Virus record (IMG/VR): IMGVR_UViG_3300044998_000279
Location: 1-23,638 of that record
DNA length: 23,638 nucleotides
Strand: one strand, 5' to 3'
Source: a virus
Shown here: one piece after another, positions 4,609-17,826 of the stretch
Layout: each line of letters begins with the position of its first letter
Position numbering within the stretch: position 1 is the stretch's first letter
Made by a program: the position numbers and the translations under genes
The notes under the pieces: model-generated
The model's input: the letters and a program-made list of their open reading frames with translations, nothing else
Told to the model about the DNA's origin: nothing
Database searches by the model: none

Positions 4609-6539
4609 GCGATTCTCCGGCAGGCAAGAGTAACGATGTAGCTGGTCGAGGTGCGGCCATCTTCCCTGTACATGAGATCAGCTCGCGCATCCTCAATGAT
4701 AGCGGTCCACTTCCGGTTGGAGTCAGCAAACCCGATGGTCACGATGTGACCGGCTGCGTCTACAATTCCCTCGGCGAGGTTCCTACCGTGGGTGAAGAAC
4801 CGCCCTGTTCGTCTGTTGATCTGGTCGGACTCAGCCATGAATTTCAGGGTGAAGAAATCAGACTGTGTATTCTGCTCCCGTTGGATAACATATCGATAGT
4901 CGATTGAGATAGGAAGTGTCAGGTAAGGCGTCACGTCGTCAGGGTTGTTGACGTACATCTTGCCCGCGATGGCGAACTTCCTTCCTGGCAGGACGTTGCT
5001 GGGAACGCCGAGGACGAACGGTCCGGTCTTGGTAATCAATCCCAGATGGTACTGTTCGAGGTCATCGTCCACCTCAAGGCTCAGCTCGATGTAATTTTCC
5101 TCTGAGGCGTGAGCATACCCCCTGATCTGGGTTACGCTCCCGTTGATGTCCGGCGGCCTCCCGCTGTAGAAGCCGGTTCGGAACCCCGTGACAGGAGCCA
5201 GAGTCTTGGGCGGCGGCGAATAGGCTGCCGTGGCAAGGTCAATCTTGTAGATTCGCCATTCACTGTAATCATCGGTCGAGGCGATCATGAATGCCTTGAG
5301 TCTGGCGTTGAACTGCCCGTTCTCAAAATAGCGAGAGGTTATCAGGCCCCACACCCGTCCAATTGAATCATCAATCTGGAGCAAGGCAGGGTGATAGAAC
5401 ATCCCATCCTCATACATCTCCAGATGGCTGAGGTTGATTTTGTCTCCGATAATGTTGGCGGCAACAAGCGCCCCTGTCGGGGTTGGGGCAACGCTGTGGG
5501 CAGACTTGTCCAGCATAAGGCCGATGCCTGGCGTCGCGCCCTGATGAACGGCGGGGGAAATGTCTGTAAGGCTAACGTTTCTTGGGTCAAAGCGTCCCAG
5601 CCCGTCAACAGAAGGAGCAAGCAGCCAGCTCCCCACGTATTTCATCTGCCCGCCGAATTTCAGGTCATTGAACCCTACCTGTTCGGGGGTGAGAGGGATG
5701 AATACTTCGTTCCGGTCGAGACCCCAGATGTTGCCGCCCTTGGTCGCATACAGAAAATACTGTCCTGCGACACCTGCGCCGGTGACGAGAGCTTTAGGAA
5801 CCTCAAGGACGAACGCGTTTGTTGCGTTCGGGTAGATGAAATTCGTGCTGATGGCACCGAACTGCTGATCTGTGCGGTCCGTCCATCGGAGCTGAGGATA
5901 GTCGCCATCTCGGTTGCGAATCCAGAACAGTGAGTTTCGGGTGCTGCCGCCCCACGAGAACATATAGGTTTCGTCCGTGTTCTCGGTGTCAGCGGTGTAA
6001 TTGTAGGCACCTGTCGTGACGAAGTTCTCATTCTGTAAGCCCAGCCAGAGCTCGTTTGCCCAGGTGAAAGAGCAGCCGGAGAAATAGCCGGAGAGGTCAT
6101 CCTTCAGGATGTAAGTGACCGAATCGTCCTCGCGGTCGATAAGGAACAGCTGCTTGCCTGCGGCAAAGAGGATGTCTCCGTTGTCGAGCATCGCCGCAGC
6201 CGCGTAGCCATTGATCTGGGCTACTTCCTCAGAGTCATAGATTGATTCTGAATGGAGCAGCTCGACAGCGCCAGATGGCATGATGAACCCTGGCTGCCGC
6301 GTATCGGCAAAATGTCGCTCTTCGTTGGAATCCCTTGCCATGTTCGGGTCGGTAGCAATGACGCGTCCATACCCGTGATGAAGTGTCTGGATGGGGATTG
6401 TGTCTACCCGTGAGGGAGCAGACGGTTCAAGTAGAACATTGCCCAGTTCGAGGCCGCCTTTCTCTCCGTAGAGAAAAGGGAGAGAGGGGCCATCCTCGAT
6501 CTGAATTGTGATGTCAAAAGACTTCGGGGACGCTACCAC
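4605..6539 (-). CDS. Beta-propeller-like virion protein, candidate tail nozzle/tail tube protein B
   Basis: This 644-aa protein is almost all predicted beta strand. From about residue 110 to 400 it has recurring blade-like segments, such as NGDILFAAGKQLFLIDREDD, NELWLGLQNENF, NSLFWIRNRDGD, YFLYATKGGNIWGLDRN, GSWLLAPSVDGLGRFDPR and GALVAANIIGDKINLSHL. These resemble a beta-propeller. The last 200 residues form another beta-rich domain. In T7-like phages the nozzle protein gp12 is a large propeller encoded directly after the adaptor gp11, and here it follows a 306-aa adaptor candidate. The start is GTG (6539), overlapping the upstream gene by 7 nt, with GAGAAG as a weak ribosome site. The virion role is fairly safe, and the nozzle label is an analogy based on fold and order. 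Confidence 0.6.
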   Translation of the reverse strand: MVASPKSFDITIQIEDGPSLPFLYGEKGGLELGNVLLEPSAPSRVDTIPIQTLHHGYGRVIATDPNMARDSNEERHFADTRQPGFIMPSGAVELLHSESIYDSEEVAQINGYAAAAMLDNGDILFAAGKQLFLIDREDDSVTYILKDDLSGYFSGCSFTWANELWLGLQNENFVTTGAYNYTADTENTDETYMFSWGGSTRNSLFWIRNRDGDYPQLRWTDRTDQQFGAISTNFIYPNATNAFVLEVPKALVTGAGVAGQYFLYATKGGNIWGLDRNEVFIPLTPEQVGFNDLKFGGQMKYVGSWLLAPSVDGLGRFDPRNVSLTDISPAVHQGATPGIGLMLDKSAHSVAPTPTGALVAANIIGDKINLSHLEMYEDGMFYHPALLQIDDSIGRVWGLITSRYFENGQFNARLKAFMIASTDDYSEWRIYKIDLATAAYSPPPKTLAPVTGFRTGFYSGRPPDINGSVTQIRGYAHASEENYIELSLEVDDDLEQYHLGLITKTGPFVLGVPSNVLPGRKFAIAGKMYVNNPDDVTPYLTLPISIDYRYVIQREQNTQSDFFTLKFMAESDQINRRTGRFFTHGRNLAEGIVDAAGHIVTIGFADSNRKWTAIIEDARADLMYREDGRTSTSYIVTLACRRIA

Positions 6540-7453
6540 GATGGGCTTCTCATCGACCAGGGAATATCTTGCTCGAAGGTTTCTTCAATGAGGTACGACG
6601 ACGCACGGAGCGGGGGCATGTACTGAATCTTCGCCGCAGCCCATTCCTGTTCAAGAAGCGCAAGCGTTGAACCAAATCTGACCCTCACTACTTCAGTGCC
6701 GTATTTCTTGTAACAGAGCCGGAGAATCTTGACCGCTGATCCCAGCTGCGCCAGTCTGAACGGGCAGTTCGTCGTGTCCCCATCTTCCTCCAGCCGTGCG
6801 CCTGGATAGACATAGGGCTTGTTCGCGACAAGGACCCCCGTCAGATTCTCCTGATGGCCGGGGAGATAAGAGAAGTGAAGGGTTACTGAATTGTTGCTCT
6901 CAACCGGAGAATAGCCAGCCCATTCCGCTTCCTGCATGTAGCCGTTGCTCAGGGTCATCTTGACCTTGACGGTCTCGATCTGACCACGGGTAGTCACCCA
7001 TGAACAATCCCCGCCTTCGGGATCATCCATATCATCCACCGGATAGTCAGTCTGATTCTGGACAAAACTGAAGGGGACATTTACTCGCTTCCACATCTCG
7101 GAGAGGGCTTCATTGACGCAGGCCTTTACCTCATCCGGATTGAGTAAGAGATAGACAGCAAACGGGTCGCCGTCGTCCAGGTCAAAGGGGCCACCGTGCA
7201 AAACCATTGTATCCGGCGTCTCCGGTACGGAGAGGGAGAGAATCCTGCTCCACGTATTCCCTGTGGCGCTGGCCTCCCTACTGACGAGGAATGCCTGTTC
7301 GATTCCGTACCTGTCGGGGCTTTTGTTGACGATGTCGAATGAGCGGACCGAATGATTGTCCAGATCAACGCTGTCAGCATTGCCGTAGAGAATCAGGCCC
7401 AGGTTATCGAGAGCCGCTTCTTTAATCTGCCGGAGCGTGATGGATTGAGCCAT
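6533..7453 (-). CDS. Hypothetical virion protein (306 aa), candidate head-tail adaptor
   Basis: No clear family motif is visible. The N-terminus is helical (LRQIKEAALDNLGL). A helical stretch (NPDEVKACVNEALSEMWKRV) follows a beta-rich part, and a second helical segment near residues 235-280 (FRLAQLGSAVKILRLCYKKYG...LALLEQEWAAAKIQYM) resembles the helical bundles of neck adaptors. The central part is beta-rich with acidic loops (YPVDDMDDPEGGD). It lies directly before the propeller-like gene, the place of the T7 gp11-type adaptor, but similarity cannot be shown by eye. The ATG follows the glycosyltransferase gene's stop by 9 nt. Only a weak TAGG precedes it, so translation may depend on the upstream gene. 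Confidence 0.6.
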   Translation of the reverse strand: MAQSITLRQIKEAALDNLGLILYGNADSVDLDNHSVRSFDIVNKSPDRYGIEQAFLVSREASATGNTWSRILSLSVPETPDTMVLHGGPFDLDDGDPFAVYLLLNPDEVKACVNEALSEMWKRVNVPFSFVQNQTDYPVDDMDDPEGGDCSWVTTRGQIETVKVKMTLSNGYMQEAEWAGYSPVESNNSVTLHFSYLPGHQENLTGVLVANKPYVYPGARLEEDGDTTNCPFRLAQLGSAVKILRLCYKKYGTEVVRVRFGSTLALLEQEWAAAKIQYMPPLRASSYLIEETFEQDIPWSMRSPSW

Positions 7454-7462
7454 GCCTAGATT

Positions 7463-8956
7463 CTACAAATCCCCCAGGAGTTTTGCATCCCTGACCGCAA
7501 CCCAATCCTCGTAGGTCGGATGGCCGGAGACCTTCTTGCAGTGAAAACCATTGTCGGCAAACCATTGCAGAAGCTCCTCGGCAGAGCACTGCGAGTTTCG
7601 CCGGAGCTGACGCTCCGAGACCTCGAAGATGATCATCTCGGCCGCTCTGAATACTTCTGGGGACCCCTTAATCACGTTCATTTCCTCCCCTTCGATATCC
7701 ATCTTGATGACGGCAAAGGGTCCCTCTACCAGCTCGCTCAGGACCGCGGTCTGAACCATGGGGAAGTATTCCGTCTCAGGGATAAGATAGGCCTCTCCGT
7801 GATTCCCTTTCAGCCCCTTGGCGGTCAGGCTGAAATTCCCGCTGGTGTTGGAGACTGCAAGGGGAATGACCTGAATCGAGTAGCGATTGGCCTGAGCGGA
7901 GTCATTAAGGTATTCGACTGCCTCCGGATTCGGCTCAATGGCTGTTACCTCTGCACCCTTGCTTGCAGCAAGCAGAGAGAAATAGCCGATGCTGGCACCG
8001 ATGTCCAGGAATCTCTTACCTTTTGTAAGGTGCTTACGGAGAATGCTGGATACGGCTGGCTCCCATTCTCCTGAAGATGCGATCATCGGGGAGATATGGG
8101 TGTCCTCCTGAGAAAGACGGATCAGGAAACCGTCCTTGGCCCGCACGAACCAGGGCTGTTCTGCATACCCAACCTTTTCCATCGTCCCCTTTCGATGCCA
8201 GATGATAACGCCCGGCACAGGGCGCGGTGGCCGAACCGCATCTTCCAGAGTGAAGTCATATAGCCCCCAGTGTCTCAGCCGGACCGTGGGATCGATGTAG
8301 CACTTGAACCCAACATCTCTTGCCCGCTGGCAGAATGACCAATCCTCGGATAGGCGATAGATTTCCCCCGATTCCTTCCTGACTGAGATCGGATCAAAGA
8401 ACGGATAGAAGCGGAGAGAGGACGGATGTTGAATCTCAAGGCCCCCATGCCATTCATCCCGGATTTTCTCGAACACGCGTCGATGTACGGCCATGAAACC
8501 AGTAGCCAGGTACTCGACTTCAGCGGGAGGCTGGCCTTCGGCAAAGACAATTTCCTGCTCCGCCTCGGTGGTAAGCAGCCGTATTGCCAGTTCAGGGGAA
8601 TGGCCTGTCCGCTTCACGTAGGCTCCGCCGATGATGTCGTACTCGTAGGCCTTTTCTGCTATTCGCAGGAGATGCTGAGGATCGAACTCGATATCCGAGT
8701 CGATAGAGACAAATACGTCTGCCCTGGATTCAAGGAAGCCAGACGCGCCGCGATTCCTTGCCCTGATAATCAGCGCGTCGTTGACCACGGGCTGAAATGT
8801 GGCATGAATCCCCATGAGGTCACAGATGTGGACAAGGCCCATCATCGCGTTACTGTGCCCTGCCTCGACCTCTCTCCAGTAAGCGTTGGCAACGTAGATG
8901 CCGCCGCCGTTCTGAGATGCTTCATAAAGACGAGGGTAGGGGTGAGATTCTGCCAT
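7463..8956 (-). CDS. Two-domain glycosyltransferase (GT-A, family 2-like) fused to FkbM-type methyltransferase
   Basis: This 497-aa protein has two enzymes. The N-terminal half is a GT-A glycosyltransferase: SIDSDIEFDP carries the D86-x-D88 metal and sugar-nucleotide motif, YLATGFMAVHRRVF is the acceptor-side stretch, and SEDWSFCQRARDVGF holds the ED pair typical of family 2/Anp1-like enzymes. The C-terminal half, from about residue 300, is an FkbM-like SAM-dependent methyltransferase. It has FLDIGASIGYF as the SAM loop near 316, AIEPNPEAVEYL next, and IKMDIEGEE near 418. The ATG at 8956 has GGAAAGGA about 8 nt upstream. The frame stays open for 52 more codons upstream, but through a stem-loop and into the previous gene. 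It probably adds a sugar and O-methylates it. A virion protein or a host surface glycan are both possible targets. Confidence 0.85.
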   Translation of the reverse strand: MAESHPYPRLYEASQNGGGIYVANAYWREVEAGHSNAMMGLVHICDLMGIHATFQPVVNDALIIRARNRGASGFLESRADVFVSIDSDIEFDPQHLLRIAEKAYEYDIIGGAYVKRTGHSPELAIRLLTTEAEQEIVFAEGQPPAEVEYLATGFMAVHRRVFEKIRDEWHGGLEIQHPSSLRFYPFFDPISVRKESGEIYRLSEDWSFCQRARDVGFKCYIDPTVRLRHWGLYDFTLEDAVRPPRPVPGVIIWHRKGTMEKVGYAEQPWFVRAKDGFLIRLSQEDTHISPMIASSGEWEPAVSSILRKHLTKGKRFLDIGASIGYFSLLAASKGAEVTAIEPNPEAVEYLNDSAQANRYSIQVIPLAVSNTSGNFSLTAKGLKGNHGEAYLIPETEYFPMVQTAVLSELVEGPFAVIKMDIEGEEMNVIKGSPEVFRAAEMIIFEVSERQLRRNSQCSAEELLQWFADNGFHCKKVSGHPTYEDWVAVRDAKLLGDL

Positions 8957-8979: not shown

Positions 8980-9011
8980 TGATAGGGGTGCCACAAATGA
9001 CACCCCTATCA
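8980..9011 (-). repeat. Perfect 11-bp inverted repeat (stem-loop) between capsid-associated and glycosyltransferase genes
   Basis: TGATAGGGGTG (8980-8990) and CACCCCTATCA (9001-9011) are perfect complements around a 10-nt loop. On the leftward transcript the stem forms 21 nt after the stop of the 151-aa gene and ends 23 nt before the ATG of the glycosyltransferase gene, just ahead of its ribosome site. No T-run follows on either strand, so it is not a standard intrinsic terminator. A partial terminator, an mRNA-stabilising 3' end for the abundant capsid message, a processing site or a translation control hairpin are all possible. Confidence 0.75.
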
Positions 9012-9032
9012 TACTCCACCCCGCTGGAAGGG

Positions 9033-9488
9033 TTAACTGATTCCGTTTCCTCGCAGACCCGGCGGAAGTCCAATGTCCTGGTTGCCAAGGGCAAAGAGGA
9101 AGTTGAAGTCATCCGTCGTGCTGAGCGTTGAGGAAAGAGTTACGCGACCCCGCCACTGGATGTTGTCCGGATTGTAGTTTTCGGGAACGATGTCCTTCTG
9201 ACAGGGTGCCCATACGGTCTGTTGCGGGACACCGGTGGTTCCCACCCGCAGGGCCGCAACCCCGATGGGGTAATAGGTCGAACCGTTGTCCAGGGACACA
9301 TCGAGAAACGCGTTCAGGGTGCGAGTCCCGAAGTTGGCCGTAGACGCCTCGGTAATCATGACGACGAATCCCTCGCCGACACTGAATCCGGCCCGACCGT
9401 TTTCCATCGCATTCGTCGTGGCCTCGGTGACGCTGCTCACATCGAAAGCGACTTCATTTGTGGTGTTTTCGTAGTCAAGAGCAGGCAT
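9033..9488 (-). CDS. Capsid-associated protein candidate (decoration/head protein), 151 aa
   Basis: This small protein is beta-rich and Thr/Ser/Asn-rich. Stretches such as NAFLDVSLDNGSTYYPIGVAAL and IQWRGRVTLSSTLSTTDDF look like an immunoglobulin-like or jelly-roll sandwich. It has one cysteine and no membrane segment. It starts 13 nt downstream of the capsid stop with AAAGGAG at ideal spacing, one of the strongest ribosome sites here, which suits a protein made in high copy with the capsid. Decoration or cement proteins often sit next to the capsid gene. A head-completion protein is the alternative. No family is recognised, so the role is inferred from position and fold type. Confidence 0.65.
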   Translation of the reverse strand: MPALDYENTTNEVAFDVSSVTEATTNAMENGRAGFSVGEGFVVMITEASTANFGTRTLNAFLDVSLDNGSTYYPIGVAALRVGTTGVPQQTVWAPCQKDIVPENYNPDNIQWRGRVTLSSTLSTTDDFNFLFALGNQDIGLPPGLRGNGIS

Positions 9489-9501: not shown

Positions 9502-10557
9502 TTAACTGGTGGTACCAGACAGATTGTAGCCGACGAGCCACGCGGCAGAGCGGCGTTGCCACATGGTCGCAGGGTTCACAACCCATCGAATCTGAATGAC
9601 CCGGTAGTACGGGCTGGTGTCCCGCTCACGGTCCTTGACCATGAGGCCCTGCATCTGCGTCCCCATTGCGTAATCCTTGCCGAAGTGGACGCAGGCAAGA
9701 GGGGTGGTCTTGTCGTAGGCGTTGGCTCCGTTCGCCGTGGACGGCGCGTAGGAGTCGTAGCCGATAACCCAGTTCCCCTTGGTGCCAGCCGACGGGTCAC
9801 TGCCGGACACCGCACCCTCTGGCGTGAAGCCAGCGTCGAGGAACGGCGTCCCGTCGTACATGTAAACCTGGCGGTCGAACTGGTCCCTGTTGTAGTCGAG
9901 CAGCTTCAGTTGGCGAAGAATGGCCCCGAACTGAAGGATGTAGATACTGTTCGAGATGAAACAGAGATTGTTCGTCGCGTCCGGCTTTACCACCGGAGCA
10001 ACCTTTCGCCGAAGGTTGTTCAGGTTGTAAAGGAAGCCGTGAGCCTGGGCGTCCGTGACCGTGCCGGGAGCGAGCACAACTTCTGCTGTGTTGGCGCTGG
10101 CATTGACCACCTGCCCATTGAACCGTGGGTTCGAGTCCAGTTGAGTAAAGAGACCGTCAAACTTGCCGTTGTTACTGACTGCAACGGAGTTGATATAGTC
10201 CTCAACGAGCTGGTAGGCGAACGCCTTGGTCTGCGCATCGATCTGCGCCTGACGCGGGTCCTGGATCATGTTCTTCTGCATGAGAATGACAGGGTCCAGA
10301 GGAATGTCGATGTCATAGATCGACAGCGCATTGGCAACCTGCGCGAAGTCAGCCAGCGCCTCGCTGCCAGCCTGGTTCAGGTTGCGCATCGAGGGGGCCT
10401 TGATGTTGGAGATGTAGGGCACGATCTGCGAGAGCTGATCCTGATTCTCGAACGGAATTCTCTCGTAAACCGGCGATTCATCGACCAGGGTCTTGACCAC
10501 GTATTTCTTCAACGGAGGCATGGTCAGCGCCTGGGTCTGGTGCAGTGTGACAGGCAT
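9502..10557 (-). CDS. Major capsid protein
   Basis: This 351-aa protein has the size and placement of an HK97-fold capsid protein. It lies directly after the scaffold candidate and before a small beta-rich protein. The N-terminal arm (LKKYVVKTLVDESPVYERIPF) is followed by a helical part with QAQIDAQTKAFAYQLVEDYINS, which looks like the long spine helix. A central domain contains a His- and Asn-rich stretch (AHGFLYNLNNLRRKV), and the C-terminal strand is YYRVIQIRWVVNPATMWQRRSAAW. Several viral coat families share this VxxRWG-like ending after an aromatic turn. GAGAGG 6 nt upstream of the ATG gives strong translation, and only 3 nt separate it from the scaffold stop. The family call is by pattern and context rather than a search. 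Confidence 0.75.
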   Translation of the reverse strand: MPVTLHQTQALTMPPLKKYVVKTLVDESPVYERIPFENQDQLSQIVPYISNIKAPSMRNLNQAGSEALADFAQVANALSIYDIDIPLDPVILMQKNMIQDPRQAQIDAQTKAFAYQLVEDYINSVAVSNNGKFDGLFTQLDSNPRFNGQVVNASANTAEVVLAPGTVTDAQAHGFLYNLNNLRRKVAPVVKPDATNNLCFISNSIYILQFGAILRQLKLLDYNRDQFDRQVYMYDGTPFLDAGFTPEGAVSGSDPSAGTKGNWVIGYDSYAPSTANGANAYDKTTPLACVHFGKDYAMGTQMQGLMVKDRERDTSPYYRVIQIRWVVNPATMWQRRSAAWLVGYNLSGTTS

Positions 10558-11374: not shown

Positions 11375-11716
11375 TTATTCTGTGAGATTGTCCGGCCTGA
11401 CAGCGGGATGGGTAGGTGTGCTGACCGTCCTCTTAGCTGTTACCGGAAGGTGCTTCGGGGCATTCTTCAGCGCGTGCCTGGCGAGCTGCATCGTCCTCTC
11501 ACGCGTCATGCCGGGGCCGGTCTCCCGCCCTCTGTAGAAATCTTCCCACGTCTCATCAGTCCTTTTGCCCGGCATTGAGAACGCAGGAGATGTGTAGACC
11601 CTTCGCGCAGGAGTCTCGCACTTTGCACAGAACAAGGGCTTCGAGGAATCAGACGAATGTCGCCGTACCTCATAGGCTGATTCACACCTGTCACAGATAA
11701 AGCTGTAGAATGGCAT
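11375..11716 (-). CDS. FmdB-family zinc ribbon protein
   Basis: This 113-aa protein opens MPFYSFICDRCESAYEVRR and carries two CxxC pairs, C8/C11 and C30/C33. This is the single-zinc ribbon of the FmdB/CxxC_CxxC_SSSS family. The rest is basic and flexible (RTDETWEDFYRGRETGPGMTRERTMQL, then a Thr/Pro-rich tail). The family is common in phage structural clusters next to head genes, where its role is not established. Nucleic-acid or protein binding is assumed. The ATG overlaps the stop of the giant gene by one base (TAATG), with GGGAG about 9 nt upstream, so the two are translationally coupled. It is the last gene before the scaffold/capsid pair. Confidence 0.8.
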   Translation of the reverse strand: MPFYSFICDRCESAYEVRRHSSDSSKPLFCAKCETPARRVYTSPAFSMPGKRTDETWEDFYRGRETGPGMTRERTMQLARHALKNAPKHLPVTAKRTVSTPTHPAVRPDNLTE

Positions 11717-14700
11717 TAGCGAATTGCTCCCAGTGAAGTGCCGCGCATCTCCCGCGCGAGAATCTTGTTCGTGTCCACGTTCTGCGGTCCGAGCAGTGAG
11801 CGATACCGGATCGGAATTTCACTCTCCATGAATGGATACCAGAGAATCGCATCCTGATTGTTCAACAGGAACTGAATTGCTTCCATGTTCCGGATGGATG
11901 CCGCAAACCTGGAATCCAGCGATGCGCGGTAGGCAAGAGCAGCAATCTCTGCCTGCCTCTTGTTCTGGATTTGGCCCTGCCGCTCAAGGTTGGCAAGGGC
12001 CTGACGGTAAACGATCGCCGGATTGACGTTGATTCCCATGTCCCGATACTGGGCAGCTGTGGCGGAAAGGATGCTCTTGTAAGCATCCAGCAGCTTGCCC
12101 TCAGCATTGCTCAGGCCGATGTATTTAGGCATCCGGTCGAAATAAGTCTCCATGACTTCCCTGGCTCGCTGAAGCTGTTGCACGGCAGGATCGTCAGGCG
12201 TCTGCAATTCCTTGAACTGGGCAACCGTTCGCGGAGAGTAGCGGGAAAGGACTTCCTGCTGTTTCGCCTTGTAGCCATTCCAGTCAATGTCGTTGTCGGG
12301 GATGATGCCCGCTTCGGTCACAATGTCCCGGCTGAGACGCTCCGGCTTGATAGCGTTGTACTCAGCCATGAGGCGGAAAAGCTCTGTTTGGTTTCCGCCA
12401 AGACTTTCAACTTCATCCCTCGGTGTTGCTCCAGCCTTAGCCAGGGCATTCTTCATGGCAAGAGACGTGTCAGCTCTGTCCTCCTGAATAGTGGAATAGG
12501 TCTGGCGGAACTCCTCTGGAGTAATCTGGCCCGACATAAGCCTGGCCGAAGCGCGGCTGATCTCCGCGTCGTAGGCATTATTCATTTCGTCCCACGAGGA
12601 GAAAATCGCTTCGCGAGCTGCCGTAGAAGAGCCAACCCTTCTGCCCAGGTCTGAGGTGTATTCTTCCTCCAGCTTCACGATTTCTGGATTCTCCTCACGG
12701 GCAATCCGCTTCAACATCGAAGGAGCACTCTTCCACGAGATGGGCTCTGCATCTGGGAAGCGGTTCCGCTGCCAGTTCTGGAATGCGGCATCCAACCTCT
12801 CAGACGGCAACGGCATCCTTGGGTTGAGGCCCATGAACTCCATCGCGGACTGAGCGCCAAGACTCAGAGGATTAATGTTCCCTGTGTAGGAATCTTCATT
12901 CAGTTCCCGAACGGTATTGCCGACGAAGATCGGGGAAACCATTTGCAGCGCAGCAACAGCACGGTCTCGCGGTGATTGCACCGGCCTGCCGAGGAAGTCA
13001 TGGCCCCGAATCTGGTCAATGATGCCACCAAGGACGGGGTTGCTGCGTCCTTCAAAGAAGTTCTCGATCGAAGCCAGCCGGTCGGCTAGAGAAAGATTGA
13101 ACTCCCCTGCTCTATTGCCTGCAATGATCTGTGCATACAGCTTCGGAGCCTGATTGCCCCAGCTCAACCCCAGATAGCCGCCGCTCTGCCCAAGAGGGCC
13201 GGTAATCATCCCGCCAGGCTTGCGGGGGTCAAGCGCAGCCCACGAGTCCATTTCCTCTTTGAACTTGTCCGAGGTCCCGGTAATCTCAGCGATGCTTGCG
13301 GCAAAGGCGGTCCTGAACAGCGCTTCCCTCATCAGGAGAGAGGTTGCAAGATACCCCTCAGGGCTGTTCGGATTCCGGAGCATCTTCGAGACAGAATTGA
13401 TAAGGCCACCCCTCGCTCGGAAGAATCCAGGAACGAACAGCAGAGCCGACTCAATCGCCTGCCTGTCCCTGCCGGTAAGCGACTGCGCCCGCGAAAGACC
13501 ACCAAGGGCATTGTTCGCCTGCCTGATGATGGCATTCGAGATTTCCTCCGGCGTTGACTGGAAAAGGTTGGCCTCGCGGTTAAGCCTTTCCAGGGAAGGG
13601 ATGCCGTCAATGAACTCCTTGGACGCCGCCGGTCCGAAGGCGCGGATCATCTGGACATCCGCTTCCAGCGTGTCAATCAGGTTCATCTTGTTGATAGTCT
13701 GCATCCGGTCGAAGGCAATCCTGTCCATCTTGGCCATGAAATTGCCAGCCCGCCGAAGCCCTGGAATCGACTGGAAGATGTTCGCGGTTGGCTCTACGCC
13801 AGTGACGCTTGCGCGGCCAATGCCCATGCCACGGTTCACGCGGTCGATGAGCTTGTTCCTGAACACGGGATCAGCCATGAGAGTCATCCACCCCTCATCA
13901 CTGACCGCGTGGCGGTAATACTGGGAAAACATCTTCGCCGTCGAAGATGGGTTCATTGCCATCCCGATGAGGCCCTGAACTGTAGAGAATGAACCGTCGC
14001 CTGTGATTACGCTGGCCGCAACCCTGTTCATCGCCCTGGCTGCTTTGTCAAAAGCGCCAAAGGTCGGCTTGTTGAGCAGGACTCCACTGAGCTTTTCCCA
14101 ATCCTCTGCATACTCTGGAGACTTCCATTCAGCAGGCTGGATTTTCTGTCCCCGCCGGAGCAGGTTGACTGCATCAGGGTCTTTGAGCCACGTCTTGACC
14201 GTGTCCCACGTCGAGTTTTCATTGATCTTGTTCAGGACATTCGAGGCCTGGGTCAGTCCCCATTCGTTGGCAGGGATGAGCATCTCGGAAAGGGTTGGCA
14301 CCGTTTCCGCTCCATTGATGGCCGTCCTCGCCTGTCGTGTAGGGTCGGTCTCCGCATTGCGGAGAATCTCATAGAGATCAGTAATGTCCGTCCGCTGAGA
14401 CGGCTTCAGGGCAAGGATTCTGCCATCCGGAAGAATGATGCGCCCCTGCGGGGCATAGTGGCGAAACTCCTCTTTGAGTAAGTTCCGGACCAATCCACGG
14501 CTACCTGCAAGCTGCTCGATGGACTGGAGCTGCTTTCTGTAGGAGCCAAGGATATTGCGAAGGCTGGGGTCGAGGTTCAGGAAAAGCTCCTGATTCCGCG
14601 CGGCGAACAGGAAGCTGCCGGAGAGCAGGTCATAAATTTGCTGCTTCGCTGCATCAGGGATACCTTCGAGGTGGCTGCCCCATTCATTTATCGGCCTGGC

Positions 14701-17700
14701 AGCGCGACGCAGGACAGCCTCCATCCTCGCATTCGGGTCCTTGATCTCCTTGACTGAACGTGCCCACGCTGCTTCCTCAGCCTTGTCAAATCCAGCTTTG
14801 ATCTGACGCTTGGAGGCAAGGGTGTGAGAACCATCGGCGATCTTTGCCAGCATCTGGTCAGTGAGCCTTGTGGCAACTCGCTCCAGTCCCCCGTAAGCAA
14901 TGTCCGCCATCTGTGCAGCAGATGCCTCGCCGTTGAAGTGGGCGGCAGCAAGGGCTTCAACTCTCTCATTCTTGTAGCCGGTGCCCATCACGGTCCGGCG
15001 GAGCCAGCCGCCGACACCCTTGCGCCATGCATCAGGGTCAATGCGCGAATACGCAGCGCTCTTAGGGGTGTTCAGGAGACGAATAGCATTCCTCGCCCCC
15101 ATCTCGAAAATCTGCTGTTCGGCAAGGTTGCTCAACTCGCCAAGAGCCGCCTGTGCAGGCTTGGGCAACGCCGCAGTGTAGCTCCTGGCAAGCGACTGGT
15201 ACTCATCCATGAGCTGATTGAACGCGCCCTGAGTAAGACGCTTCCCGCTGACATGCTGCTGAAGATCAGAGAGTACCCAGTTACTGATCTCCTCGGACTG
15301 ACGCAGGAAACGCTCCTGTGCCTGTAGCGAGGATGCTCCGACAGACTCACGAAGCCTGTCCCATGATTCTGCTCGCTGGGTGATAGCTTCCGTGTACAGC
15401 TGGGCAGCCTGATCTGCTTCCTCCTTCGCTGCGGCAAGAGTGGCTTCCAGCACCTGCTGGTTGTTGGAAATCACCTGATCGATGCGGAGGACTTCAGCAT
15501 CTTCAACTGCCAGCTGCCCCCTCAGGCCTTCGAGATTGATATCAATCTCATCGAGCTGCTTCGCCCTGCGAATGACATCTTCAGGCAGAGACGGGTCCAG
15601 GCCGGAACGGGCAAGAGCAATGTCCCGTTCATCAAGTCCCAGACTGCTACGAGCTTCCTCAAGCTGTTGAATTTGGCTGATAAGGCTTTCCCGCCTCGCC
15701 TCGGCAATCGCACGCTTGTTCAGAAGTTTGACTGTGCGGACATCCTTAATACCGGCATCCCTGAGAGCGCGCGCTGTCGGCTTCTGTCCAGGCTCCCAAA
15801 CAGTGAAGCGGGTGGCATCATCGAGCGGTATGAACCGCGTTCCTTCAGGTCTCTGGCCGTTAACAGGGCGGACCAGCTCCAGGTCTCTTGCTTCCTGTTC
15901 GGCGATCTTGATTCGCTCTGCGATGTCTCCGACGTCTGCGCCCTCTTTACGGAGTCTCGCCTGTTCCCGCCGGAGCACCTGCACCCGTTCGCGTGCATCT
16001 CTCACCGCCTGTTGCTGCGCCGCAACTGACTCGACTCCCTCGCCGATTGCTTCCTCTACAGACTTGCTGGGAGCTACATACTCAACATCAACGCCGGGTT
16101 TGCCGTCTTTCCAGCCGAACGACTTGACCCTATAGCGGCCAGGCCTGCCAGGAATCTGGATCAGCTTTCCCTGCATCTCTTTGACCGTTCGTGCAAACGG
16201 TTCGTTTACAAGAGCCTGGAAGCGGTTGCGTTCCTCCATCGCGAGGCGGGACAGCTCTGCATCCGAAGCCATGTACGACTTCAGGCCACTTTCAGCCTCA
16301 CCCACTGCTCGGTGAAGATCGATGTATCGTGCTACTTCCTCGGTCAGGCCGGAAAGGTCAGCACCCTTCGCCCTGCGAACAAGGTTGTCGTAAGCGCCTT
16401 TGACATCGTTGTTTGTGATGAGAGCAGAGAGGTAACGCCGCCCGGCAGAACGCGCACCGGACGGGAGATTCTTCAGGATTTCTTCCTGAGCCGCTTTCCT
16501 CGCCGCCTGCGCGTCCTTAACAGCCTTCTTGTAGGCTCCGGCGGATTCCTTACTCAGCTTTTCCTGCTCTAAAAGCTGACGTACACGCTCATACGCCTGG
16601 AGCTGCTCATCAGTAGGCTTGCCTACGAGGTCGGAAAGGGTTCCTTCCTTGCCTTTCGTAAAGCGAAGTTCTCCGAATCCAGCCGAGCCTTCCTCCAGTG
16701 CCCTCCACCGCTCCTGAGCCTGGACCATCGTTGCATAACGCTGGACTGCAACAGCGTCGCCTTCCCTTGCGGCGCGGACGGTCCTGCCAAAGTCGTAAAT
16801 GTCATCAACAAGCAGGCTCGGAGAGCCGGACTCCCGCATGTAGTTCAGAAGGTGTCGCAACGCTTCCGTCTGGTCCTTCATGGACTCTTTGACGGCGTCG
16901 TCAATGTTCGGGTTGCTCATCGCCGCTTCACGGGCGGCAATCTGCTCGCTCAGCCCGCGCTGGTCAACGACGGTTCGCTCCCCGTCCTGTGTCATGTACT
17001 TCGGGTAACGAACGTTTGAGCGAACGACTCCGTCATCAATATCTTCGGCGTAAGCAATGGGCTTCTGCCTGTTCTTGAGGATCATCTCCGTTTCACGTGC
17101 TCGCCGGAGCGAATCGAGACGCGAGATTCCTGCCCATCCACCACCAAAAGCCCCAAGGATAGAGCCTGGGGTGCCCGCCACTTCACCGCCAACACCCGAC
17201 CCCGCTCCTGCGGACGCAAGCATCGCAAGGTATTGCTTCTGGCTGAGCGAACCGCGACCGGCAACCTCGGTAAGAAGGGTCAGCAGTTTCCCCGCTTTGC
17301 CCGCCGCCTGTGCGCCAGCGGTGGCTTTTCGGGCAACACCGATACCAAGGAGGTTAGTCGGGTCCAGAAGCAGGCCAGCGGCCCCTTCAAGGCCCCTGCC
17401 GGTAATCCGCGTCGCTTTACCAGCCACCCCACCGGCGACAGGGATATCGTTAGCCCTGTCCTCCGCAGCAGTTGTTGCAGACCTGATCCCTCGTGTTGCC
17501 AGCTGCTTGGGAGTTCCGAGCTTCAGGTTCGGAGCAAGGTGTTCCTCTTTCGAGGCGTCGAACCACAGCGCTCCCTTAATATCGCCCTTTGCAATCTTCC
17601 GCAGGGCAGGGATGGCAAGCACCCGCTCGACCGGCATCTCCTCGACGCCGCGAGAGAATGACTCAATGCCTTTAAGGGCTGTTCCGGCTACATCGCCGCC

Positions 17701-17826
17701 GAGGGAAAGAAGGGAGCCAAGGCCGCCGCCAAGCTCTGACTTGCCGCGCGCCCTGGCAGCCTCGATCTCTCGCTGTCTGCGGCGTTCGTTGATCGCCTCA
17801 AGCAGGCTAGCGCGGTAGTCGTTCAC
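11716..17826 (-). CDS. Giant virion protein (2036 aa), candidate internal/ejection protein
   Basis: One gene fills a quarter of the window. Gly/Ala-rich amphipathic stretches near residues 32-60 and 205-240 are followed by long charged helical or coiled-coil regions (about 600-660 and 700-830). A helical, mildly hydrophobic part from about 1260 to 1600 (for example AASVITGDGSFSTVQGLIGMAM, YLATSLLMREALFRTAFAASI) may insert in membranes. The C-terminus is again helical. I see no lysozyme, transglycosylase or peptidase motif. The 1260-1500 part faintly recalls large polyvalent-protein helical domains. Giant helical proteins after the portal are often packed in the capsid and ejected with DNA, and a tape measure is the other option. 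The GTG start has no Shine-Dalgarno, but the frame is closed by a TGA 24 nt upstream and no other start lies between. Confidence 0.7.
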   Translation of the reverse strand: MNDYRASLLEAINERRRQREIEAARARGKSELGGGLGSLLSLGGDVAGTALKGIESFSRGVEEMPVERVLAIPALRKIAKGDIKGALWFDASKEEHLAPNLKLGTPKQLATRGIRSATTAAEDRANDIPVAGGVAGKATRITGRGLEGAAGLLLDPTNLLGIGVARKATAGAQAAGKAGKLLTLLTEVAGRGSLSQKQYLAMLASAGAGSGVGGEVAGTPGSILGAFGGGWAGISRLDSLRRARETEMILKNRQKPIAYAEDIDDGVVRSNVRYPKYMTQDGERTVVDQRGLSEQIAAREAAMSNPNIDDAVKESMKDQTEALRHLLNYMRESGSPSLLVDDIYDFGRTVRAAREGDAVAVQRYATMVQAQERWRALEEGSAGFGELRFTKGKEGTLSDLVGKPTDEQLQAYERVRQLLEQEKLSKESAGAYKKAVKDAQAARKAAQEEILKNLPSGARSAGRRYLSALITNNDVKGAYDNLVRRAKGADLSGLTEEVARYIDLHRAVGEAESGLKSYMASDAELSRLAMEERNRFQALVNEPFARTVKEMQGKLIQIPGRPGRYRVKSFGWKDGKPGVDVEYVAPSKSVEEAIGEGVESVAAQQQAVRDARERVQVLRREQARLRKEGADVGDIAERIKIAEQEARDLELVRPVNGQRPEGTRFIPLDDATRFTVWEPGQKPTARALRDAGIKDVRTVKLLNKRAIAEARRESLISQIQQLEEARSSLGLDERDIALARSGLDPSLPEDVIRRAKQLDEIDINLEGLRGQLAVEDAEVLRIDQVISNNQQVLEATLAAAKEEADQAAQLYTEAITQRAESWDRLRESVGASSLQAQERFLRQSEEISNWVLSDLQQHVSGKRLTQGAFNQLMDEYQSLARSYTAALPKPAQAALGELSNLAEQQIFEMGARNAIRLLNTPKSAAYSRIDPDAWRKGVGGWLRRTVMGTGYKNERVEALAAAHFNGEASAAQMADIAYGGLERVATRLTDQMLAKIADGSHTLASKRQIKAGFDKAEEAAWARSVKEIKDPNARMEAVLRRAARPINEWGSHLEGIPDAAKQQIYDLLSGSFLFAARNQELFLNLDPSLRNILGSYRKQLQSIEQLAGSRGLVRNLLKEEFRHYAPQGRIILPDGRILALKPSQRTDITDLYEILRNAETDPTRQARTAINGAETVPTLSEMLIPANEWGLTQASNVLNKINENSTWDTVKTWLKDPDAVNLLRRGQKIQPAEWKSPEYAEDWEKLSGVLLNKPTFGAFDKAARAMNRVAASVITGDGSFSTVQGLIGMAMNPSSTAKMFSQYYRHAVSDEGWMTLMADPVFRNKLIDRVNRGMGIGRASVTGVEPTANIFQSIPGLRRAGNFMAKMDRIAFDRMQTINKMNLIDTLEADVQMIRAFGPAASKEFIDGIPSLERLNREANLFQSTPEEISNAIIRQANNALGGLSRAQSLTGRDRQAIESALLFVPGFFRARGGLINSVSKMLRNPNSPEGYLATSLLMREALFRTAFAASIAEITGTSDKFKEEMDSWAALDPRKPGGMITGPLGQSGGYLGLSWGNQAPKLYAQIIAGNRAGEFNLSLADRLASIENFFEGRSNPVLGGIIDQIRGHDFLGRPVQSPRDRAVAALQMVSPIFVGNTVRELNEDSYTGNINPLSLGAQSAMEFMGLNPRMPLPSERLDAAFQNWQRNRFPDAEPISWKSAPSMLKRIAREENPEIVKLEEEYTSDLGRRVGSSTAAREAIFSSWDEMNNAYDAEISRASARLMSGQITPEEFRQTYSTIQEDRADTSLAMKNALAKAGATPRDEVESLGGNQTELFRLMAEYNAIKPERLSRDIVTEAGIIPDNDIDWNGYKAKQQEVLSRYSPRTVAQFKELQTPDDPAVQQLQRAREVMETYFDRMPKYIGLSNAEGKLLDAYKSILSATAAQYRDMGINVNPAIVYRQALANLERQGQIQNKRQAEIAALAYRASLDSRFAASIRNMEAIQFLLNNQDAILWYPFMESEIPIRYRSLLGPQNVDTNKILAREMRGTSLGAIR

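Follow-up and report, generated by a model that had tools for sequence, protein, structure and literature searches.

The IMG/VR virus record IMGVR_UViG_3300044998_000279 (positions 1 to 23,638, the 23,638-nucleotide stretch of DNA analyzed here and referred to below as the window) carries, among its head genes, a gene for a 497-aa protein in which a GT-A glycosyltransferase (GT) domain is fused to an FkbM methyltransferase domain. This protein is probably a two-step virion-decorating enzyme that attaches a sugar to a protein of the particle and then O-methylates the sugar. The GT-A domain would transfer a sugar from a host nucleotide-sugar onto a protein of the assembling particle, and the likeliest acceptor is either the capsid protein or a small protein whose gene immediately precedes that of the enzyme. 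With SAM as methyl donor, the FkbM domain fused to it would then O-methylate the transferred sugar, leaving the glycan capped. In this scheme, we infer the donor sugar, the protein acceptor, the order of the steps and the role of the sugar as methyl acceptor. Virion modification, which a sequence-only reading of the same DNA had already put forward, is the best reading because both the placement of the gene and the pairing of a GT with a methyltransferase recur in many unrelated phages, and the evidence favors it over modification of the host envelope or of DNA. Among tailed phages, to our knowledge, few have documented virion glycosylation, and most of these are mycobacteriophages.

The gene occupies positions 7463..8956 on the minus strand, with the ATG at 8956 and the stop codon at 7463-7465. 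Its frame is intact: reading through it gives 497 codons plus the stop, with zero internal stops. A ribosome-binding-like sequence, GGAAAGGA, is located at 8972-8965, 8 nt upstream of the ATG. An alternative in-frame start at 9112, which would lead to a longer protein, is unlikely, since the extended frame would overlap the gene of a 151-aa protein. The GC content of the GT half and that of the methyltransferase half both resemble that of neighboring genes, and thus the gene bears no mark of recent insertion. The sequence-only reading had described the coordinates and content of the gene correctly, leaving out its strand, and the residues that it singled out (D86, D88, SEDW, with SED at 203-205, and RARDVGF) are all present in the translation. 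The AF2 model of the protein, built from 68 sequences, has a mean pLDDT of 86.5 and consists of two compact domains joined by a loose linker. We conclude that the gene is genuine and undamaged and that it belongs to a pattern seen repeatedly. In the 76-nt gap that separates it from the 151-aa gene, there is a 14-bp hairpin without a T run (8980..9011, minus strand); the 91-nt region that holds the hairpin has an MFE of -35.6 kcal/mol (z -3.2). The hairpin could set the level of the enzyme lower than that of the capsid genes. A promoter-like site lies ahead of it at 9036..9008, and an Rfam search of the window returned no match.

The GT-A domain comprises residues 1-240 (8237..8956, minus strand). 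Residues 30-236 are matched by the profile of phrog_1574 (E=3e-25), a GT family that carries no assigned function. The Pfam profile PF00535 matched the same half with E 2e-4 and 21.7 bits, just under its curated cut-off of 23.3; we therefore name this half GT-A/phrog_1574 and not a Pfam GT2 member. As judged from the model, the half adopts a GT-A fold: its best match among solved structures is A197 of STIV (2c0n; Z 17.5, rmsd 2.5 A over 170 residues), followed by LH3, Mnn9 and COLGALT1. The last three enzymes act on proteins or protein-linked glycans. Conservation of individual residues was counted over 106 non-redundant relatives. The DxD motif, D86-S-D88 (8693..8701, minus strand), has D at both positions in 105 of 106 relatives, with one gap, while E204 and D205 of the SEDW motif (residues 203-206; 8339..8350, minus strand), the probable catalytic base region, are found in 106/106. 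H229 is kept in 105-106 of the 106. The profile match, the match of the model to 2c0n and the preserved DxD motif thus bear out the earlier assignment of this half to the GT-A enzymes.

A linker (residues 241-297; 8066..8236, minus strand), partly disordered in the model, with pLDDT under 50 at residues 245-266, connects the GT half to an FkbM SAM-dependent methyltransferase domain (residues 298-472; 7541..8065, minus strand). Two FkbM models, PF05050 (3.9e-14, 53.6 bits against a curated cut-off of 22.7) and TIGR01444 (3.4e-21, 76.2 bits against 37.7), match residues 316-472. The methyltransferase half is, therefore, a genuine FkbM member, and the full FkbM-like SAM domain claimed from inspection of the sequence does exist in the same polypeptide, clearing both curated cut-offs. 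The SAM-binding motif I, DIGASIG (residues 318-324; 7985..8005, minus strand), has D318, G320 and G324 invariant in A2, and K418, D420, E422, G423 and E425 are invariant in the FkbM signature KMDIEGEE (residues 418-425; 7682..7705, minus strand). Structurally, this half aligns with the FkbM enzyme 2py6 (Z 14.2, rmsd 2.3 A over 163 residues), as it does with many class I enzymes. The RNA methyltransferases that make up most of the whole-model Foldseek list were rejected as a clue to function, since this is a generic Rossmann match. Profile search and structure prediction, which had been recommended as checks, confirm both domains, and neither domain is degraded, the catalytic motifs of both being all intact.

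The head genes around the enzyme gene all lie on the minus strand. The major capsid protein (MCP; 9502..10557, minus strand) was identified by phrog_212 (9.9e-17) and by the MCP of L198, a relative of the window phage (E 3.9e-24, 34% identity). Between the MCP and enzyme genes is that of the 151-aa protein (9033..9488, minus strand), which has a syntenic 155-aa homologue in L198 (E 9.7e-6) and no match in isolate phages. Its model is mostly beta, but with a pLDDT of 50, too low for a claim about its fold. Directly downstream of the enzyme gene, in the connector/adaptor position, is the gene of a 306-aa protein (6533..7453, minus strand), with an L198 homologue at the same position (E 5e-10) and no family match in Pfam and PHROG profile searches; a 644-aa gene comes next. 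The gene map thus agrees with the placement described earlier, in one orientation between a capsid-associated gene and neck/tail candidates. The MCP is a candidate glycan acceptor, and the 151-aa protein is a candidate acceptor or decoration protein. Further upstream, the capsid gene and a scaffold-like gene are preceded by the gene of a 2036-aa protein (11716-17826, minus strand), possibly an internal or ejection protein; L198 and L180 have long genes, of 1398 aa and 1772 aa, where the window has this one. A 113-aa protein recognized by eye as an FmdB-like zinc ribbon (11375-11716, minus strand) is also encoded inside the head gene run.

The gene order in L198 (MCP, 155-aa protein, GT-methyltransferase fusion, 287-aa protein and 650-aa protein) matches that of the window, with which it shares, in the same order, the capsid protein and the 151-aa, 306-aa and 644-aa proteins. 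The L198 GT branches apart from that of the window, still inside the head-linked cluster, and the L198 methyltransferase domain belongs to the Methyltransf_23 class, unlike the FkbM domain of the window. The two methyltransferase domains are 27% identical over 89 residues (E 5e-6) and, judging from this similarity, may have a common distant origin.

None of the first 80 viral relatives retrieved by a GT profile search was fused to a methyltransferase. The early view drawn from these loci, that the fusion is nearly unique, was overturned by scans with an FkbM pattern and a subfamily profile, which detected a second GT group. The neighbors of the wider GT family, in a 24-locus sample, include the sliding clamp (17) and the clamp loader (12), as well as nucleotide metabolism genes; those of the subfamily (24 loci, 93 proteins) include 19 members of one major-head family, 12 head-tail adaptors and 12 members of phrog_5707. 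The order of genes in the second group is MCP, then usually a protein of ~130-155 aa, the GT, and then often a head-tail adaptor. On a GT tree, a quick one with several long branches, the window GT is placed in this capsid-linked group and not in the clamp-linked clade; lying in a head module, it does not keep company with replication or base-modification genes. This location bears on the idea that the enzyme modifies phage DNA, a sugar being placed on a modified base and methylation following. The sister GT clade is found beside the sliding clamp and clamp loader, where DNA glucosylation enzymes would make sense, but the membership of the window GT in the capsid-linked group speaks against such a role, as does, more weakly, the fact that no base hydroxylase or hydroxymethylase was recognized in the 23.6 kb of a record that is probably a fragment. 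We regard DNA modification as very improbable. Members of the sister clade, which occurs in T4-like phages (L008, L009, L014, L105 and others), are themselves candidate DNA glycosyltransferases; one clade member is encoded by the clamp-linked Caulobacter phage Cr30.

The frequency of pairing was counted on 106 non-redundant GT domains, each labeled by a capsid gene or by a clamp, clamp-loader or SbcC gene within 3.5 kb. A fused or adjacent methyltransferase was found for 15/21 capsid-linked GTs and for 1/28 clamp-linked ones (Fisher p 5e-7, kinship ignored), the capsid-linked sample coming from a subfamily scan whose seeds were two fused proteins, so that fusions may be overrepresented in it. 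Six of the 21 head-linked GTs have no methyltransferase by that count; among them, L102 carries another class, its FkbM gene and the Methyltransf_24-GT fusion after it both lying downstream of a capsid gene of the GP7-like type. On the same quick tree, the capsid/clamp context requires 1 change, association with a methyltransferase 6 or more and the architecture 9. With its one change of context, the tree offers one pair for a paired comparison of context and methyltransferase, which leaves that test without power. Two GTs followed by a close separate methyltransferase gene, in L007 (MW202753.1, 7974-9468) and L075 (5914-7256), lie near exonuclease/recombination genes, and thus the pairing is not confined to head modules.

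At capsid-linked loci, the methyltransferase is fused C-terminally to the GT in L095, L175, L178, L180, L181 and L198 and N-terminally in L183, L184, L187, L189, L197 and L200, and is encoded by a separate overlapping or adjacent gene in L179, L182, L185 and L190. By Pfam, these methyltransferases are of the FkbM, Methyltransf_23, _24 or _11 class. FkbM is a broad family, and its domains are able to methylate substrates besides sugars. Together with the different Pfam classes found at this site, this breadth would suit separate acceptors, with the GT acting on a virion protein and the methyltransferase on a protein side chain or on another small molecule. Repeated fusion to the same GT, however, fits a shared substrate, and the sugar-methylating type of domain in two analogues, Che8 gp108 (TylF-like) and PBCV-1 A064R, argues in the same direction; we hold separate acceptors to be quite improbable.

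By analogy, virion decoration by such an enzyme has precedents in Che8 gp108, PBCV-1 A064R and Corndog. Mycobacteriophage Che8 is reported to glycosylate its virion, and its GT gp110 is called essential for capsid glycosylation (PMC12363180). Close to gp110, in a set that also includes gp109, lies gp108, which our domain analysis describes as a GT2 and Methyltransf_24 (TylF-like) fusion; a gp108-type gene of the Che8-related phage Seabastian is annotated as glycosyltransferase/methyltransferase. Like the 497-aa protein, gp108 joins a GT and a sugar-type O-methyltransferase in one phage protein, but its gene is located at the right end of the genome, whereas the window gene is in the head module. 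In Corndog, O-methyltransferase and GT genes have been proposed to modify the capsid (PMC4351075). Corndog and Firecracker have an O-methyltransferase and three GT-like genes inside their head genes; these are separate genes situated between portal and protease, in contrast to the fused enzyme that follows the MCP in the window. The best HMM matches to mycobacteriophage GTs had E 0.013 (Firecracker gp35) and 0.023 (Che8 gp110), none significant, and the mycobacteriophage methyltransferases gave no significant match to the window FkbM half. The comparison with mycobacteriophages drawn in the sequence-only reading is thus apt in function, but no homology is detectable for either domain.

The A064R protein of the algal virus PBCV-1 is likewise a single viral polypeptide with both GT and methyltransferase domains, and its methyltransferase acts on the glycan of the capsid protein, where it 2-O-methylates the terminal rhamnose (PMC7019647, PMC9614988). 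Compared by domain make-up, it differs in having two GT domains (GT-GT-MT), and its glycan is N-linked. The capsid protein of the archaeal virus STIV is glycosylated (PMC4187194), and the virus encodes a GT, A197, for which glycosylation of that protein has been proposed (PMC4187194, PMC10551542). While this GT-A enzyme is the closest solved structure to the window GT half, it is 18% identical over the aligned part and does not contain a methyltransferase domain. An uncultured Caudovirales protein in BFVD, named FkbM and 788 aa long, aligns over about the whole 497-aa model.

No isolate phage has a protein covering 80% of the 497-aa protein, and in Rowa and Nyceirae, isolate phages with related MCPs, the corresponding site lacks a GT gene. 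An MCP profile scan retrieved the L198 virus again and nothing else, and single-protein MCP and terminase scans of viral contigs gave no relative. Bacterial envelope pathways commonly contain FkbM methyltransferases and GT2-like enzymes, and the window enzyme could accordingly be thought to modify a glycan on the host surface (LPS, teichoic acid or capsule), for example to block superinfection, being placed in a late operon for timing only. A cyanophage relative located beside tail-collar genes, with a nucleotide-sugar epimerase and a second GT nearby, fits such a role. However, it is capsid and adaptor genes that recur as neighbors, the window shows no other recognizable sugar-pathway gene, and two scans covering 84,980 genomes of bacteria and archaea, both of which relied on short motifs and examined few candidates, revealed no head-linked GT relative. 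A cell-envelope target, allowed for in the sequence-only reading, is thus improbable. A place beside the capsid genes may indicate no more than that the gene is expressed late or that the site is convenient for insertion.

If virion decoration is correct, the presence of a GT-methyltransferase unit in a fixed position beside the capsid genes of many unrelated uncultured phages would suggest that capsid glycans are commoner than thought. It would give phrog_1574, a GT family labeled unknown so far, a probable function and name the capsid protein and the small protein as likely acceptors; the split of the family into capsid-linked and clamp-linked members sets probable protein-modifying enzymes apart from possible DNA-modifying ones. 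That glycans shield the virion from antibodies is speculation. A more general proposal, for and against which we see the chances as evenly balanced, is that uncultured phages share a widespread unnamed virion-glycan cassette, sited after a capsid-associated gene and ahead of the head-tail adaptor. Here, a single GT family would have acquired methyltransferases again and again, with LicD-like or sulfotransferase-like proteins as partners in isolated cases, and these partners would cap a capsid-surface glycan.

In HK97-type phages, the ~130-aa protein encoded between the capsid gene and the GT belongs to phrog_5707 (e.g., L095:5379-5789) and is a candidate glycan acceptor. Other partners of the GT were seen at three loci: two genes with sulfotransferase-like P-loop starts, recognized by eye, follow the GT in L201 (8566-9892), a LicD-like segment accompanies it in L220 (7881-9254), and a second GT2 domain is fused to it in L156 (3497-5221), which suggests other glycan-tailoring partners.
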